The notes beneath the pieces were generated by a model. That model ran no database searches and had not been told where the DNA came from. It was given only the letters and a program-made list of their open reading frames with translations. A DNA stretch of 64,000 bases from Cellulosimicrobium composti. GTDB lineage: Bacteria; Actinomycetota; Actinomycetes; Actinomycetales; Cellulomonadaceae. A program made the position numbers and the translations under genes. Within the stretch, counting starts at the first letter, position 1; every line of letters starts with the position of its first letter. Of this stretch, positions 22,178 to 47,575 are shown piece after piece. The DNA lies in NCBI RefSeq assembly GCF_009711085.1, contig NZ_WMKA01000014.1:1-64000 (forward strand). Reading direction: 5' to 3'.

Positions 22178-23182
22178 GTGACCGTGCCACCGGAGCAGCA
22201 GGCCGCCGTCGTGCCCGACGGCGGCCTGCTGGCCGTGCACGCGCACCCCGACGACGAGACGCTCGCCACGGGAGCGCTCCTCGCGACGTGGGCCCGCGCG
22301 GGCCTGCCCGTCACCGTGGTCACGTGCACGCGCGGCGAGCGCGGCGAGGTGATCGACACCCCGGCGCACCCGACGGGCGTCGCGCACCTCGAGGGTGACG
22401 GCCCCGCCCTCGCGGCCCACCGGGAGGGCGAGCTCGCCCGCGCGCTCGCCGCGCTCGGCGTCCGCGACCACGTCTTCCTCGACGCCGTCGCGCTCCCCGG
22501 GCACGACGGCGCCGTGCGGCCCCGGTACGAGGACTCCGGCATGGCGTGGGTCGCGCCGGGCGTCGCGGGCGGGGTCGCGACCGGGCAGCTCCCGCCCCGG
22601 GCGTTCGTGGGCGTCCCGCTCGACGAGGCCGCGGCGCGCCTGGCCGCCGTCGTGCGCGAGCGGCGTCCCGCCGTCGTCGCGACGTACGAGCCCGGGGGAG
22701 GCTACGGCCACCCCGACCACGTGCGCGCCCACGAGGTGACGGTCCGCGCGCTCGACCAGGTCGCGGCGGCGGGCGAGCCGGTCCCGGACCTGTGGCTGTC
22801 CGTCGCCCCCGAGAGCGCGGTCCGCGCCGCGCGGCGCGCGCTCGCCGAGGACGCGCAGGCGGCGGCGCTCCTCGCGGCGGACGAGCGGCTCACGCTGGCC
22901 GACCCGGACGAGGACCTGCCGCCGTTCGCGCGTCCCGACGCGACGCTCGGCACGCTACGGGTGGTGCCCGTCGCGCCTGTGCTCGAGGCGGTCCTCGCCG
23001 CGATGCGCGCGCACGCGACGCAGGTCCAGCACGCGACGGCCTCGACGGGTGGCGCCCCGGCGTCGCTCGGCTGGTACGCCCTGAGCAACGACGTGCTGGC
23101 CCCGCTGCCTTCACACGAGTTCTACGCTCCCTCCGGCGGCGCTCTCCCGGGCGCGCCCGCCCGGCCCAGGCCCACGCGTTAG
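22178..23182 (+). CDS. mshB: N-acetyl-GlcN-inositol deacetylase MshB (mycothiol biosynthesis)
   Basis: A zinc amidase of the PIG-L family, 334 residues, which deacetylates 1-O-(2-acetamido-glucosyl)-myo-inositol to GlcN-Ins, the second step of mycothiol synthesis. The metal site HAHPDDE (residues 21-27) and GHPDH (177-181) are intact. CTRGERGEVI, YEDSGMAW and MRAHATQVQ match mycobacterial MshB more closely than its relative Mca. The GTG start at 22178 follows typA by 13 nt. The stop is TAG, and the TAGCCT at 23180 appears to be the -10 box of the next gene. Confidence 0.9.
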   Translation: MTVPPEQQAAVVPDGGLLAVHAHPDDETLATGALLATWARAGLPVTVVTCTRGERGEVIDTPAHPTGVAHLEGDGPALAAHREGELARALAALGVRDHVFLDAVALPGHDGAVRPRYEDSGMAWVAPGVAGGVATGQLPPRAFVGVPLDEAAARLAAVVRERRPAVVATYEPGGGYGHPDHVRAHEVTVRALDQVAAAGEPVPDLWLSVAPESAVRAARRALAEDAQAAALLAADERLTLADPDEDLPPFARPDATLGTLRVVPVAPVLEAVLAAMRAHATQVQHATASTGGAPASLGWYALSNDVLAPLPSHEFYAPSGGALPGAPARPRPTR

Positions 23183-23185
23183 CCT
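23180..23185 (+). promoter_or_regulatory. Candidate -10 box overlapping the mshB stop codon
   Basis: TAGCCT begins with the mshB TAG stop and ends 7 nt before the GTG of the next gene, the spacing of a leaderless transcript. Confidence 0.5.
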
Positions 23186-23192
23186 GGGGCCC

Positions 23193-23639
23193 GTGGAGAT
23201 CGGAACGGGGCGGCTCGTGGGCCGCGGGGTGGCGTGCGCGCTCGTGGGCGTGCTCGTCGGTCTCGTCGGCACCGTCGCCCACCGCGCGCACGTGCTCGTG
23301 GACCTGCCCGGGGGTGTCGGCGCGGGCATCGTGCTCGCGCTCCTGGCCGTCCTCGCCGCGGGGATCCTCTCGCGTGCCTGGGGCGGGCTGGCCGGTCTCC
23401 TCGGTTTCGGCATCGGGTGGGTCGTCGTGGTGCAGCTCCTGTCCCTCGAGGGTCCCGGCGGCGACGTGCTCGTGCCCAGCGAGCCCGTGGGCTACGTGTG
23501 GATCTACGGCGGCCTCCTCGTCGTCGCGGCGGTCGCGTTCCTCCCGCGCTCGTGGTTCAGCGACCGGCCCGTCCGTCCGGCGCTCCACGGGCGTCCCACC
23601 AGGCACGACGGACCCGAGGACCCTCTCGCGTCCCGCTAG
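23193..23639 (+). CDS. Four-helix membrane protein next to mshB (DUF6113-like)
   Basis: A 148-residue integral membrane protein with four hydrophobic segments (starting around residues 10, 43, 66 and 105) and a short charged tail. It resembles the small membrane proteins that follow mshB in other actinobacteria (Rv1171 in M. tuberculosis, as I recall), but no catalytic motif is visible and the function is unknown. Start GTG at 23193 is 10 nt after the mshB stop. It terminates with TAG, which again starts a TAGAAT hexamer. Confidence 0.75.
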   Translation: MEIGTGRLVGRGVACALVGVLVGLVGTVAHRAHVLVDLPGGVGAGIVLALLAVLAAGILSRAWGGLAGLLGFGIGWVVVVQLLSLEGPGGDVLVPSEPVGYVWIYGGLLVVAAVAFLPRSWFSDRPVRPALHGRPTRHDGPEDPLASR

Positions 23640-23642
23640 AAT
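23637..23642 (+). promoter_or_regulatory. Candidate -10 box of the VanW gene
   Basis: TAGAAT starts on the TAG stop of the membrane-protein gene. The next start codon is ATG at 23716, so this transcript would have a leader of about 65 nt with a ribosome-binding site GGAGA at 23705. Confidence 0.5.
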
Positions 23643-23715
23643 TCGCGGTGCGGATCCCCGCACACCCCTCGTCGTCGCGCGGACACCCGCGCGCCTTTCG
23701 TCACGGAGACAGTGG

Positions 23716-45899: not shown

Positions 45900-45908
45900 A
45901 CCACCTGT

Positions 45909-45914
45909 CAGAAT
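45909..45914 (+). promoter_or_regulatory. Candidate -10 box of trpS (leaderless)
   Basis: CAGAAT, 6 nt before the trpS ATG at 45921, with no ribosome-binding site between. Confidence 0.45.
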
Positions 45915-45920
45915 GGGGCA

Positions 45921-47012
45921 ATGTCCATGGAGGCGACGCACATCGGTTCGGCACCGGTCCCGGTGACCACGCAGGAGGCCGGAGCACCGGCCGGCACCCG
46001 CCCACGGATCCTCTCGGGCATGCAGCCCACCGAGGACTCCCTGCAGCTCGGGAACTACATCGGCGCGCTGCGCCAGTGGGTCGCCCTCCAGGACTCCTAC
46101 GACGCGCTGTACTGCGTGGTCGACCTCCACGCGCTCACCGTCAACCCCGACCCCGAGCGTCTGCGCGAGCGCACGCGCCGCACCGCCGCGCAGTACCTCG
46201 CGGGCGGCGTCGACCCGGAGCGGTCGGCCCTGTTCGTCCAGTCCCACGTGCCGCAGCACGCCGAGCTGTCGTGGGTGCTGTCGTGCCAGACGGGCTTCGG
46301 CGAGGCCGGGCGCATGACCCAGTTCAAGGACAAGTCCGCCAAGCAGGGTGCCGACGGCACGACGGTCGGCCTGTTCACCTACCCGGTCCTCATGGCGGCG
46401 GACATCCTCCTGTACGACGCGGCGCTCGTGCCCGTCGGGGAGGACCAGCGCCAGCACCTCGAGCTCACGCGCGACCTGGCGGTGCGCCTCAACACGCGCT
46501 TCGGCGAGGGGACGGCGGTCGTGCCGGAGGCGCACATCGTGCGGTCCGTGGCCAAGATCTACGACCTGCAGGAGCCGACGGCGAAGATGAGCAAGTCGTC
46601 GTCCAACGGCAAGGGCGTCATCTGGCTGCTGGAGGACCCGAAGGTCGCCGCGAAGCGGATCCGCTCGGCCGCGACCGACTCGGACACGGAGATCCGGTAC
46701 GACCCGGTCGCCAAGCCGGGCGTCTCGAACCTCCTCACCATCTACTCCGCGCTCACGGGGCGCGACGTCGAGGCCATCGCCGCCGAGTACGACGGCCAGG
46801 GCTACGGCCGGCTCAAGGTCGACCTCGCGGACGTCGTGGTCGACTTCCTCGTGCCGTTCCAGGAGCGCGCGAACGCCTACCTCGCGGACCCGGCCGAGCT
46901 CGACGCCGTCCTCGCGCGCGGCGCGCAGAAGGCCCGCGAGATCGCCGCGGGCACCCTCGCCCGGATCTACGACCGCGTCGGTCTCCTGCCCGTCGGAGGG
47001 CCGGCGGCGTGA
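45921..47012 (+). CDS. trpS: Tryptophanyl-tRNA synthetase
   Basis: A class I aminoacyl-tRNA synthetase of 363 residues charging tRNA-Trp. The HIGH-like motif is in [20 protein letters not shown], tryptophan-pocket residues follow in [14 protein letters not shown] and [16 protein letters not shown], and the KMSKS loop is at 222-226 ([11 protein letters not shown]). The ATG at 45921 is preferred over 45927 because of the CAGAAT hexamer 6 nt before it. The end overlaps the next gene by 4 bp (GTGA). Confidence 0.96.
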
Positions 47013-47572
47013 ACCTCCCGGAGCGTGGTCCGGACCAGGTCCGGATCGGCATCGCGATCGAGGTGCCCGAGCCGTTCGCGACGCAGCTCCAGGACGCGCG
47101 CGCCCGGTTCGGGGACCCGCTCGCGCGCTCGATCCCGCCCCACGTCACGCTCCTCGGCCCTACGGTGCTCGACCCGTCCGAGCTGGACGCCGCGCGGGCC
47201 CACCTCGCCGCGGTCGCCGCGACGGCGGCGCCGTTCCAGGTCCACCTGCGGGGGAGCGCGACCTTCCGGCCGATCTCGCCCGTCGTCTTCATCCAGGTGG
47301 TCGAGGGCATCGCCGAGTGCGAGCACCTGGAGCGCACCATCCGGACCGGCCCGCTCGCCCAGGAGCTGCGGTTCAACTACCACCCGCACGTGACCGTCGC
47401 GCACGAGGTGCCCGACGCCGCGCTCGACGCCGCGTTCGACGAGATGGCCACGTACGAGGCCCGGTTCGAGGTCGCCGGTTTCTCGCTCTACGAGCACGGC
47501 GACGACGGGGTCTGGCGGCCCGAGCAGGTCTTCCCGCTCACCGCGGATGCCGGGACGGCGACCGGCTCGTAG
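47009..47572 (+). CDS. 2H phosphoesterase (2'-5' RNA ligase-like)
   Basis: A 187-residue protein with the two HxT motifs of the 2H superfamily: PPHVTLLGP near residue 35 and [11 protein letters not shown] near 127. Family members hydrolyse or form 2'-5' or cyclic phosphates in RNA or nucleotides; the actual substrate here is unknown. The GTG start overlaps the trpS stop, a conserved actinobacterial pairing. Its TAG stop at 47570 begins the TAGGGT box of the next gene. Confidence 0.88.
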
Positions 47573-47575
47573 GGT
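47570..47575 (+). promoter_or_regulatory. Candidate -10 box overlapping the 2H phosphoesterase stop codon
   Basis: TAGGGT starts on the TAG stop and ends 7 nt before the GTG of the YihY gene. Confidence 0.5.

Follow-up and report, generated by a model that had tools for sequence, protein, structure and literature searches.

The five TAG stop codons in the window that we analysed (the whole 64,000-nt stretch of Cellulosimicrobium composti DNA) each form the first three bases of a TAGNNT hexamer that is very likely a -10 element of the TANNNT type, and four of these boxes would drive leaderless genes, with the TAG of the box serving as the stop codon of the gene upstream. What we observe is the geometry, its dependence on the orientation of the neighbouring gene, the absence of Shine-Dalgarno (SD) motifs and a pattern of conservation, and from these we infer both the transcription start site and the leaderless translation at the junctions. 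Each component of this arrangement is known, whereas the sharing of one triplet by a stop codon and a -10 box looks little described.

A codon-usage gene caller exactly reproduced the stop counts that a sequence-only reading of this DNA had given, namely 50 TGA, five TAG and one TAA among 56 visible stops, with the TAG stops at 23180, 23637, 36553, 45491 and 47570. The hexamers named in that reading were likewise confirmed (TAGCCT, TAGAAT, TAGGCT, TAGTCT and TAGGGT; 5/5 read TAGNNT), and all five junctions carry the TANNNT box. Its statement that a GTG or ATG lies 6 to 7 nt beyond the box in four of five cases also holds: in-frame starts are found at 23193 (GTG), 36566 (ATG), 45503 (GTG) and 47583 (GTG), placing the box ca. 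12 bp before the start, while the TAG at 23637 is separated by 79 nt from the next start. At two of these junctions the gene caller favoured other in-frame starts, 36560 and 47574; orthologs without the upstream GTGs (L163, L291) retain the starts adopted here, and 47583 was chosen by geometry and orthologs.

All genes and boxes concerned lie on the plus strand. A PIG-L deacetylase family gene (22178..23182; Pfam PF02585), called mshB in the sequence-only reading, ends in TAGCCT (23180..23185), the predicted -10 box of a gene for a DUF6113-like membrane protein (23193..23639; match of 24 bits, under the Pfam cutoff of 27) whose GTG lies 7 nt past the box. The TAG stop of this second gene opens TAGAAT (23637..23642), predicted to be the -10 box of a leadered promoter for a VanW/PG_binding_4 protein gene (23716..26988; gene caller and Pfam). 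Farther along, a dapE-like M20 peptidase gene (35428..36555; Pfam) stops in the putative box TAGGCT (36553..36558), 7 nt ahead of the ATG of a lysine_decarbox family gene (36566..37405) that is presumably of the LOG type; the dapE-like gene is itself preceded by a TAGGGT, 6 nt ahead of its GTG. The htrA-like trypsin/PDZ protease gene (44006..45493; Pfam) ends in TAGTCT (45491..45496), a candidate -10 box followed after 6 nt by the GTG of a TatA/B-like gene (45503..45850; PF02416, 22.1 bits against a cutoff of 21). Finally, a 2H phosphoesterase gene of the 2'-5' RNA ligase superfamily (47009..47572; PF13563) ends in TAGGGT (47570..47575), and the GTG of a BrkB-family membrane protein gene (47583..48740; PF03631) lies 7 nt past this predicted box.

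In our proposal, all five TAGNNT hexamers act as -10 elements (TANNNT) of promoters read by a housekeeping sigma factor; at four of them transcription would start 6 to 7 nt past the box, with the A or G that opens the ATG or GTG of the next gene. No SD site would be used there because the message would begin at the start codon, and the position of a leaderless box would be fixed 12 to 13 nt ahead of it. Where the upstream gene is packed tightly enough to enter the box in frame, the TAG (rarely TAA) of the box would become its stop, and the gap of 9 to 10 nt after the TAG would follow from this geometry. Only TAG and TAA would fit both roles: TGA destroys the TA with which the box begins, and TAC does not stop translation. 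Loss of spacer may have brought stop and promoter together. The earlier suggestion that the choice of TAG is kept by selection for promoters is refined in this scheme, given that four of the five promoters look leaderless and the one at 23637, with the same overlap, looks leadered.

Stop counts across the genome were taken from a sample of 1.08 of its 4.32 Mb. T occupies the sixth base at 16/47 TAG stops that face a co-oriented gene, compared to 57/553 co-oriented TGA stops (Fisher 3e-5) and 0/47 convergent TAG stops (Fisher 7e-6 against the co-oriented ones). The distance to the next start, which the sequence-only reading had also proposed to compare, bears out its expectation: T combined with an in-frame start at gap 9 or 10 is found at 12/47 TAG but only 4/553 TGA co-oriented junctions (p=2e-11), and a start at this gap follows 12/16 co-oriented TAGs with T versus 1/31 without, though start codons were selected partly by the geometry being tested, and of the pooled overlaps two (both in G145) rely on a start 57-75 nt ahead of the called one. 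TAGs with T at +6 at close co-oriented junctions are thus very probably -10 boxes, their triplet being under a predicted double constraint, and this part of the promoter claim stands. As a general promoter mark, TAG was rejected, since 79 of the 95 sampled TAG stops lack T at +6 and convergent ones never have it (0/47). The 5/5 of the window is a lucky draw that is unrepresentative of TAG stops, as beyond the window T at +6 occurs at 11/42 co-oriented TAG stops and at 11/90 of all those sampled.

Over the whole genome, the pattern TAGNNTN{6,7}RTG has 342 matches and its reversed form 87; the reversed count exceeds the forward one in most of 119 genomes, making it a poor control, so that this 119-genome survey was kept out of the inference. 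Ahead of candidate in-frame starts, TAGNNT occurs at spacings of 6, 7 and 8 nt in 35, 46 and 14 cases, respectively, with at most one case each at spacings 2-5 and 9-11, and is the commonest box type in this genome. TACNNT, the other common type, shows 41, 22 and 3 cases at the same three spacings.

No SD-like motif precedes any of 152 starts with a box at 6 to 7 nt, as against 292/921 called starts, a comparison that is partly unfair because box and spacer fill the SD position. A TTGAC-like -35 match at the proper distance was found for 1/20 overlapping promoters, similar to controls, and scanning the coding ends upstream for a -35 yielded nothing clear for any of the classes. Cortes et al. 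likewise found no -35 signal in M. tuberculosis (PMC3898074).

The overlap is retained in 63/66 same-genus cases when the four leaderless-type junctions are pooled. Same-genus stops at these junctions are TAG or TAA and TGA in 0/65 (leaving out L273), whereas three control TAG stops have TGA in 10/38 orthologs; these controls came from the top three rows of the TAG list, with close orthologs only (11/20, 11/20 and 17/19 loci used) and without L368, which is cut at a contig end and in the wrong frame. Each set contains this genome, and orthologs from the same genus are non-independent. The comparisons covered 22/29 loci for the mshB-like and 23637 junctions (16 same-genus) and 23/30 for 47570 (17 same-genus), the most distant being omitted, and loci from 30 genomes for htrA and dapE; tiny pieces (L247, L255-L260) were not counted. 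The mshB-like junction has the overlap in 13/16 same-genus genomes including this one (TAG in 10, TAA in 3), and the 47570 junction in 17/17 (TAG in 15, TAA in 2) and in 0/6 more distant loci compared. At 23637, TAGNNT coincides with the stop in 11/16 same-genus genomes, while in the other five (L272-L276) the stop lies farther upstream and a TAGANT box is still present in the spacer. The dapE junction overlaps in 17/17 same-genus genomes and in 6/13 more distant loci compared, and in the overlaps outside the genus the two inner box bases vary. The htrA junction overlaps in 16/16 same-genus genomes and 0/14 more distant loci, of which 10 have a TANNNT box at spacing 6-7; the predicted htrA promoter would thus be present outside the genus without a shared stop.

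Bases past stop codons affect termination, and the T after TAG could accordingly be a termination context controlling release or readthrough, unrelated to promoters. Convergent TAG stops should then show T as well, yet 0/47 do, on which ground we rejected this reading; it also leaves the in-frame start at gap 9/10 unexplained (12/16 with T, 1/31 without) and is extremely improbable. Alternatively, the 9-10 nt gap could reflect translational coupling by termination and reinitiation or an overlap of stop and SD, the hexamer being incidental. Stop-SD overlaps that bias stop choice have been published, B. subtilis with TAG at gap 10 among them (available part of PMC2784483), and in 35 loci of other Actinomycetota 5/73 TAG stops that lack T are followed by a start at gap 9/10. 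However, an SD-like motif is seen at 0/12 overlapping starts of this genome, and gap 9/10 is not enriched at TGA junctions (12/553, versus 42 for gaps 5-8 and 11-14, eight in all), so that this reading was rejected as well and we consider it quite unlikely. Coincidence, with the five sites singled out afterwards, would agree with their being picked from one window and with the 79/95 sampled TAG stops without T, but the genome-wide excess and the fact that four junctions are conserved, each in 16-17 genomes, leave this explanation hardly any probability.

Compatible with the leaderless-promoter explanation is another reading that concerns only the frequency of the overlap: promoters would lie where they are needed, one in three upstream frames would read the TAG of the box, and selection would act on each of the two functions separately, with none for sharing as such. 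Overlap would then arise mechanically, TAG being the commonest box type before starts, and the predicted htrA promoter without a shared stop outside the genus fits this as well. On the other hand, 19/22 TAG-type boxes reached by the upstream frame are in frame (p=4e-7 against a null of 1/3), as are 20/26 for all four box types (p=7e-6), with the 1/3 null being imperfect in that out-of-frame genes need a later stop and the caller restricts overlaps to 45 nt. Moreover, upstream frames reach TAC types 3 times and TAG types 22 times, compared to 112 and 155 elsewhere (p=0.003). We regard this absence of selection for sharing as nearly an even call, if slightly on the doubtful side. Only tentatively, and inclined to doubt it, do we raise that stop and -10 box may merge far beyond chance because one dual TAG is the tightest stable boundary between independent transcription units; a dual-use stop class (restricted to TAG or TAA, with T at +6 and the next start at gap 9/10) would then recur through Actinomycetota and make up a definable fraction of the TAG stops of TGA-dominated genomes.

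Beyond this genome, the full geometry is in excess but T after TAG alone is not, and the difference between TAG and TGA expected by the sequence-only reading holds in C. composti but not in the six genomes or the 35 loci that follow. Across six other genomes of the order, T follows 10/67 TAG and 74/638 TGA stops (p=0.43), co-oriented TAGs have T more often than convergent ones (10/67 vs 1/45, p=0.048), and T with a start at gap 9/10 is found at 7/67 TAG vs 3/638 TGA (p=5e-6). The 35 other Actinomycetota loci, from which the nearest relative (L041) was excluded, show no excess of T at +6 (TAG 14/87, TGA 38/233) and the full geometry at 3/87 TAG vs 1/233 TGA, which are small numbers. Among 44 loci of other phyla there is no clear excess of T at +6 either (TAG 16/84, TGA 36/207), and the full geometry occurs at 5/200 TAA stops, by chance or otherwise. 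The peak of TAGNNT and TACNNT at a spacing of 6-7 nt is seen in Actinomycetota and not in these 44 loci.

In the accessible portions of earlier studies, TANNNT ca. 12 bp before the start marks leaderless genes in Actinobacteria (Zheng et al. 2011, PMC3160421), and in S. lividans TAnnnT is found in 93% of leaderless genes at a mean box-to-start-site distance of 6.3 nt (PMC8079986). The same portions give a leaderless share of 17% for S. lividans (PMC8079986), 18.9% for S. coelicolor (predicted) and 26% for M. tuberculosis (PMC3160421, PMC3898074). The junctions described here resemble these "TA-led" genes in the position of the box and the lack of an SD, but differ in that the opening triplet of the box is also the stop of the preceding gene. 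Such an overlap is unmentioned in the available parts of PMC3160421, PMC3898074 and PMC8079986, the main text of the first two never uses the term "stop codon" (0 occurrences), and among the matches listed from the open-access literature none reports a -10 box that shares its bases with a stop codon. In the stop-SD overlaps of PMC2784483, as far as its available text goes, the upstream stop also doubles as an initiation signal, its choice is biased and spacer deletion is the proposed origin, but the shared element is a ribosome-binding signal (TGAGG, TAGGAGG), whereas here it would be a DNA promoter element, with 12/12 overlapping starts lacking an SD-like motif of which the stop could be part.

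If the leaderless-promoter explanation holds, promoter geometry would account for part of the rare-stop-codon pattern, and the junctions would be a natural case of one triplet constrained at the level of both DNA (promoter) and RNA (stop). The signature could serve as a cheap marker of promoters inside apparent operons and help correct start codons in high-GC actinobacteria; for operon predictors, it would be a warning that two transcription units may be separated where TAG is followed by a gap of 9-10 nt. The ATGA/GTGA overlap, which couples translation within one transcript, likewise has closely packed genes and a stop triplet with two uses but, unlike the junctions here, involves no promoter. 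In its TGA form (distance -4), it is very common in this genome.

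A simple gene caller based on codon usage and trained on this genome was run on the window and exactly reproduced the 56 visible stops of the sequence-only reading (50 TGA, 5 TAG, and 1 TAA) and the positions of the TAG stops at 23180 (mshB), 23637 (membrane protein), 36553 (dapE), 45491 (htrA), and 47570 (2H phosphoesterase). We indeed found TAGNNT at 5/5 of them and confirmed that at four the hexamer is followed after 6-7 nt by an in-frame start, leaving 9-10 nt between stop and start; downstream of 23637, 79 nt separate the TAG from the next start. Five out of five is a lucky draw, with T at the sixth base of only 11/42 co-oriented TAG stops (next gene on the same strand) outside the window. 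Across 1.08 Mb of the 4.32-Mb genome, window included, 924 stops were called (823 TGA, 95 TAG, and 6 TAA), and this T followed 16/47 TAG stops with a co-oriented next gene, compared to 0/47 with a convergent one (Fisher, 7e-6) and 57/553 co-oriented TGA stops (3e-5), so that the excess of T after TAG over TGA that the reading had anticipated is present at co-oriented junctions. The full geometry, i.e., this T plus an in-frame start at a gap of 9 or 10 nt, is found at 12/47 co-oriented TAG versus 4/553 TGA junctions (p=2e-11). The TAGNNT effect is therefore real, yet limited to about one TAG stop in six. Around half of the sampled TAG stops (47/95) face a convergent gene, with T at +6 in 0/47 versus 11/268 convergent TGA stops.

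Ahead of candidate in-frame starts in this genome, TAGNNT peaks at spacings of 6, 7, and 8 nt (35, 46, and 14 cases), and none of the spacings 2-5 and 9-11 has more than 1 case. The peak recurs for TACNNT (41, 22, and 3) but not for TGGNNT, and a weaker one of CAGNNT at 6-7 nt (18 and 9) suggests boxes deviating at their first base. An SD-like motif is seen at 0/152 starts preceded by a TANNNT box at 6-7 nt and at 292/921 called starts, a comparison that is partly unfair in that the box fills the place of the SD. No -35 signal was found, and hence no second promoter element lends support; Cortes et al. likewise report none for M. tuberculosis (PMC3898074). At the sequence level, spacing peak and SD absence match published leaderless genes of Actinobacteria, for which the literature gives TANNNT ca. 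12 bp ahead of the start (PMC3160421) and, in Streptomyces lividans, TAnnnT at 93% of leaderless genes with a mean box-to-start-site distance of 6.3 nt (PMC8079986). By the features testable here, four of the five window sites would belong to these known promoters, while 23637 differs in spacing. At 35389-35430, 36 bp separate the starts of the dapE-like gene (35428) and a divergent minus-strand gene (35391); both starts follow a TAGNNT box at a spacing of 6-7 nt, as back-to-back predicted leaderless promoters.

The anticipated T excess after TAG did not appear in six further genomes from this order (10/67 versus 74/638 after TGA); the full geometry was again in excess (7/67 TAG versus 3/638 TGA). 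The 6-7 nt spacing peak is present in 35 Actinomycetota loci, with the full geometry at 3/87 TAG (Phycicoccus, a Mycobacteriaceae, and Herbiconiux) and 3/46 TAA (Corynebacterium, Kocuria, and one further actinobacterium) versus 1/233 TGA junctions. The 44 loci sampled from other phyla show neither the TAG nor the TAC peak; the full geometry occurs there at 0/84 TAG and 5/200 TAA junctions, and the latter may be chance matches in AT-richer genomes.

We compared four window junctions across same-genus genomes, own genome counted, and found the overlap of stop and predicted -10 box kept in 16/16 (htrA/tatA-like), 17/17 (dapE), 13/16 (mshB), and 17/17 (2H phosphoesterase). These 63 overlaps use TAG as the stop in 58 cases and TAA in 5, and TGA occurs in 0 of 65 resolved cases, compared to 10/38 same-genus loci of three control TAG stops without box (the first three rows of the TAG list). 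One of these controls has TAG in 11/11, so TAG can persist without a box. At 23637, TAGNNT coincides with the stop in 11/16 same-genus genomes; the remaining five have their stop further upstream and retain a TAGANT box in the spacer. In one same-genus locus (L273, genome G132), the box is not in the reading frame of the mshB ORF, which continues in frame into the next gene's GTG as an apparent gene fusion, possibly an assembly frameshift in this 83% complete genome.

None of the 14 loci examined outside the genus has the htrA overlap, yet 10 of them retain a TANNNT box 6-7 nt before the start and a separate upstream stop, which suggests that this promoter predates the merging of the stop. The dapE overlap is present in 6/13 loci from other genera and families. 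These conserve TAG and the final T, whereas the inner bases, GC within the genus, are AG, TT, TG, or CG. The mshB and 2H phosphoesterase overlaps were each found in 0/6 more distant loci examined.

Boxes at spacing 6-8 pooled from seven genomes of the order comprise 177 TAG-type and 115 TAC-type, of which 92 and 66, respectively, have a divergent upstream gene. Co-oriented TAG boxes number 85. In 19 of these, the upstream gene ends on the box's own TAG; its stop lies 1-40 nt before the box in 17, further before in 46, and 14 nt after the box's first base in 3 (ATGA-type overlap). The upstream frame reaches only 3/49 co-oriented TAC boxes. Where it reaches TAG boxes, 19/22 are in frame versus one third by chance (p=4e-7), to be treated with care since an out-of-frame gene requires a further stop beyond and the caller restricts overlaps to 45 nt.

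Geometry, dependence on neighbor orientation, and conservation pattern are properties of the sequences themselves. Sigma-A would recognize the TAGNNT box and transcription would start on the start codon, followed by leaderless translation; stop and box may have merged through loss of the spacer. More speculatively, the downstream gene would have no SD on read-through mRNA, so that each gene would mainly depend on its own promoter. The leaderless promoter itself is already known; of a triplet shared by stop and -10 box we found no report among the matches listed in the open-access literature. Published stop-SD overlaps (PMC2784483) are alike in the logic of triplet sharing, but the signal differs. 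At two further loci (L278 and L279), stop and box overlap in a second way, with the box's last T forming part of the upstream TGA (TANNNTGA).
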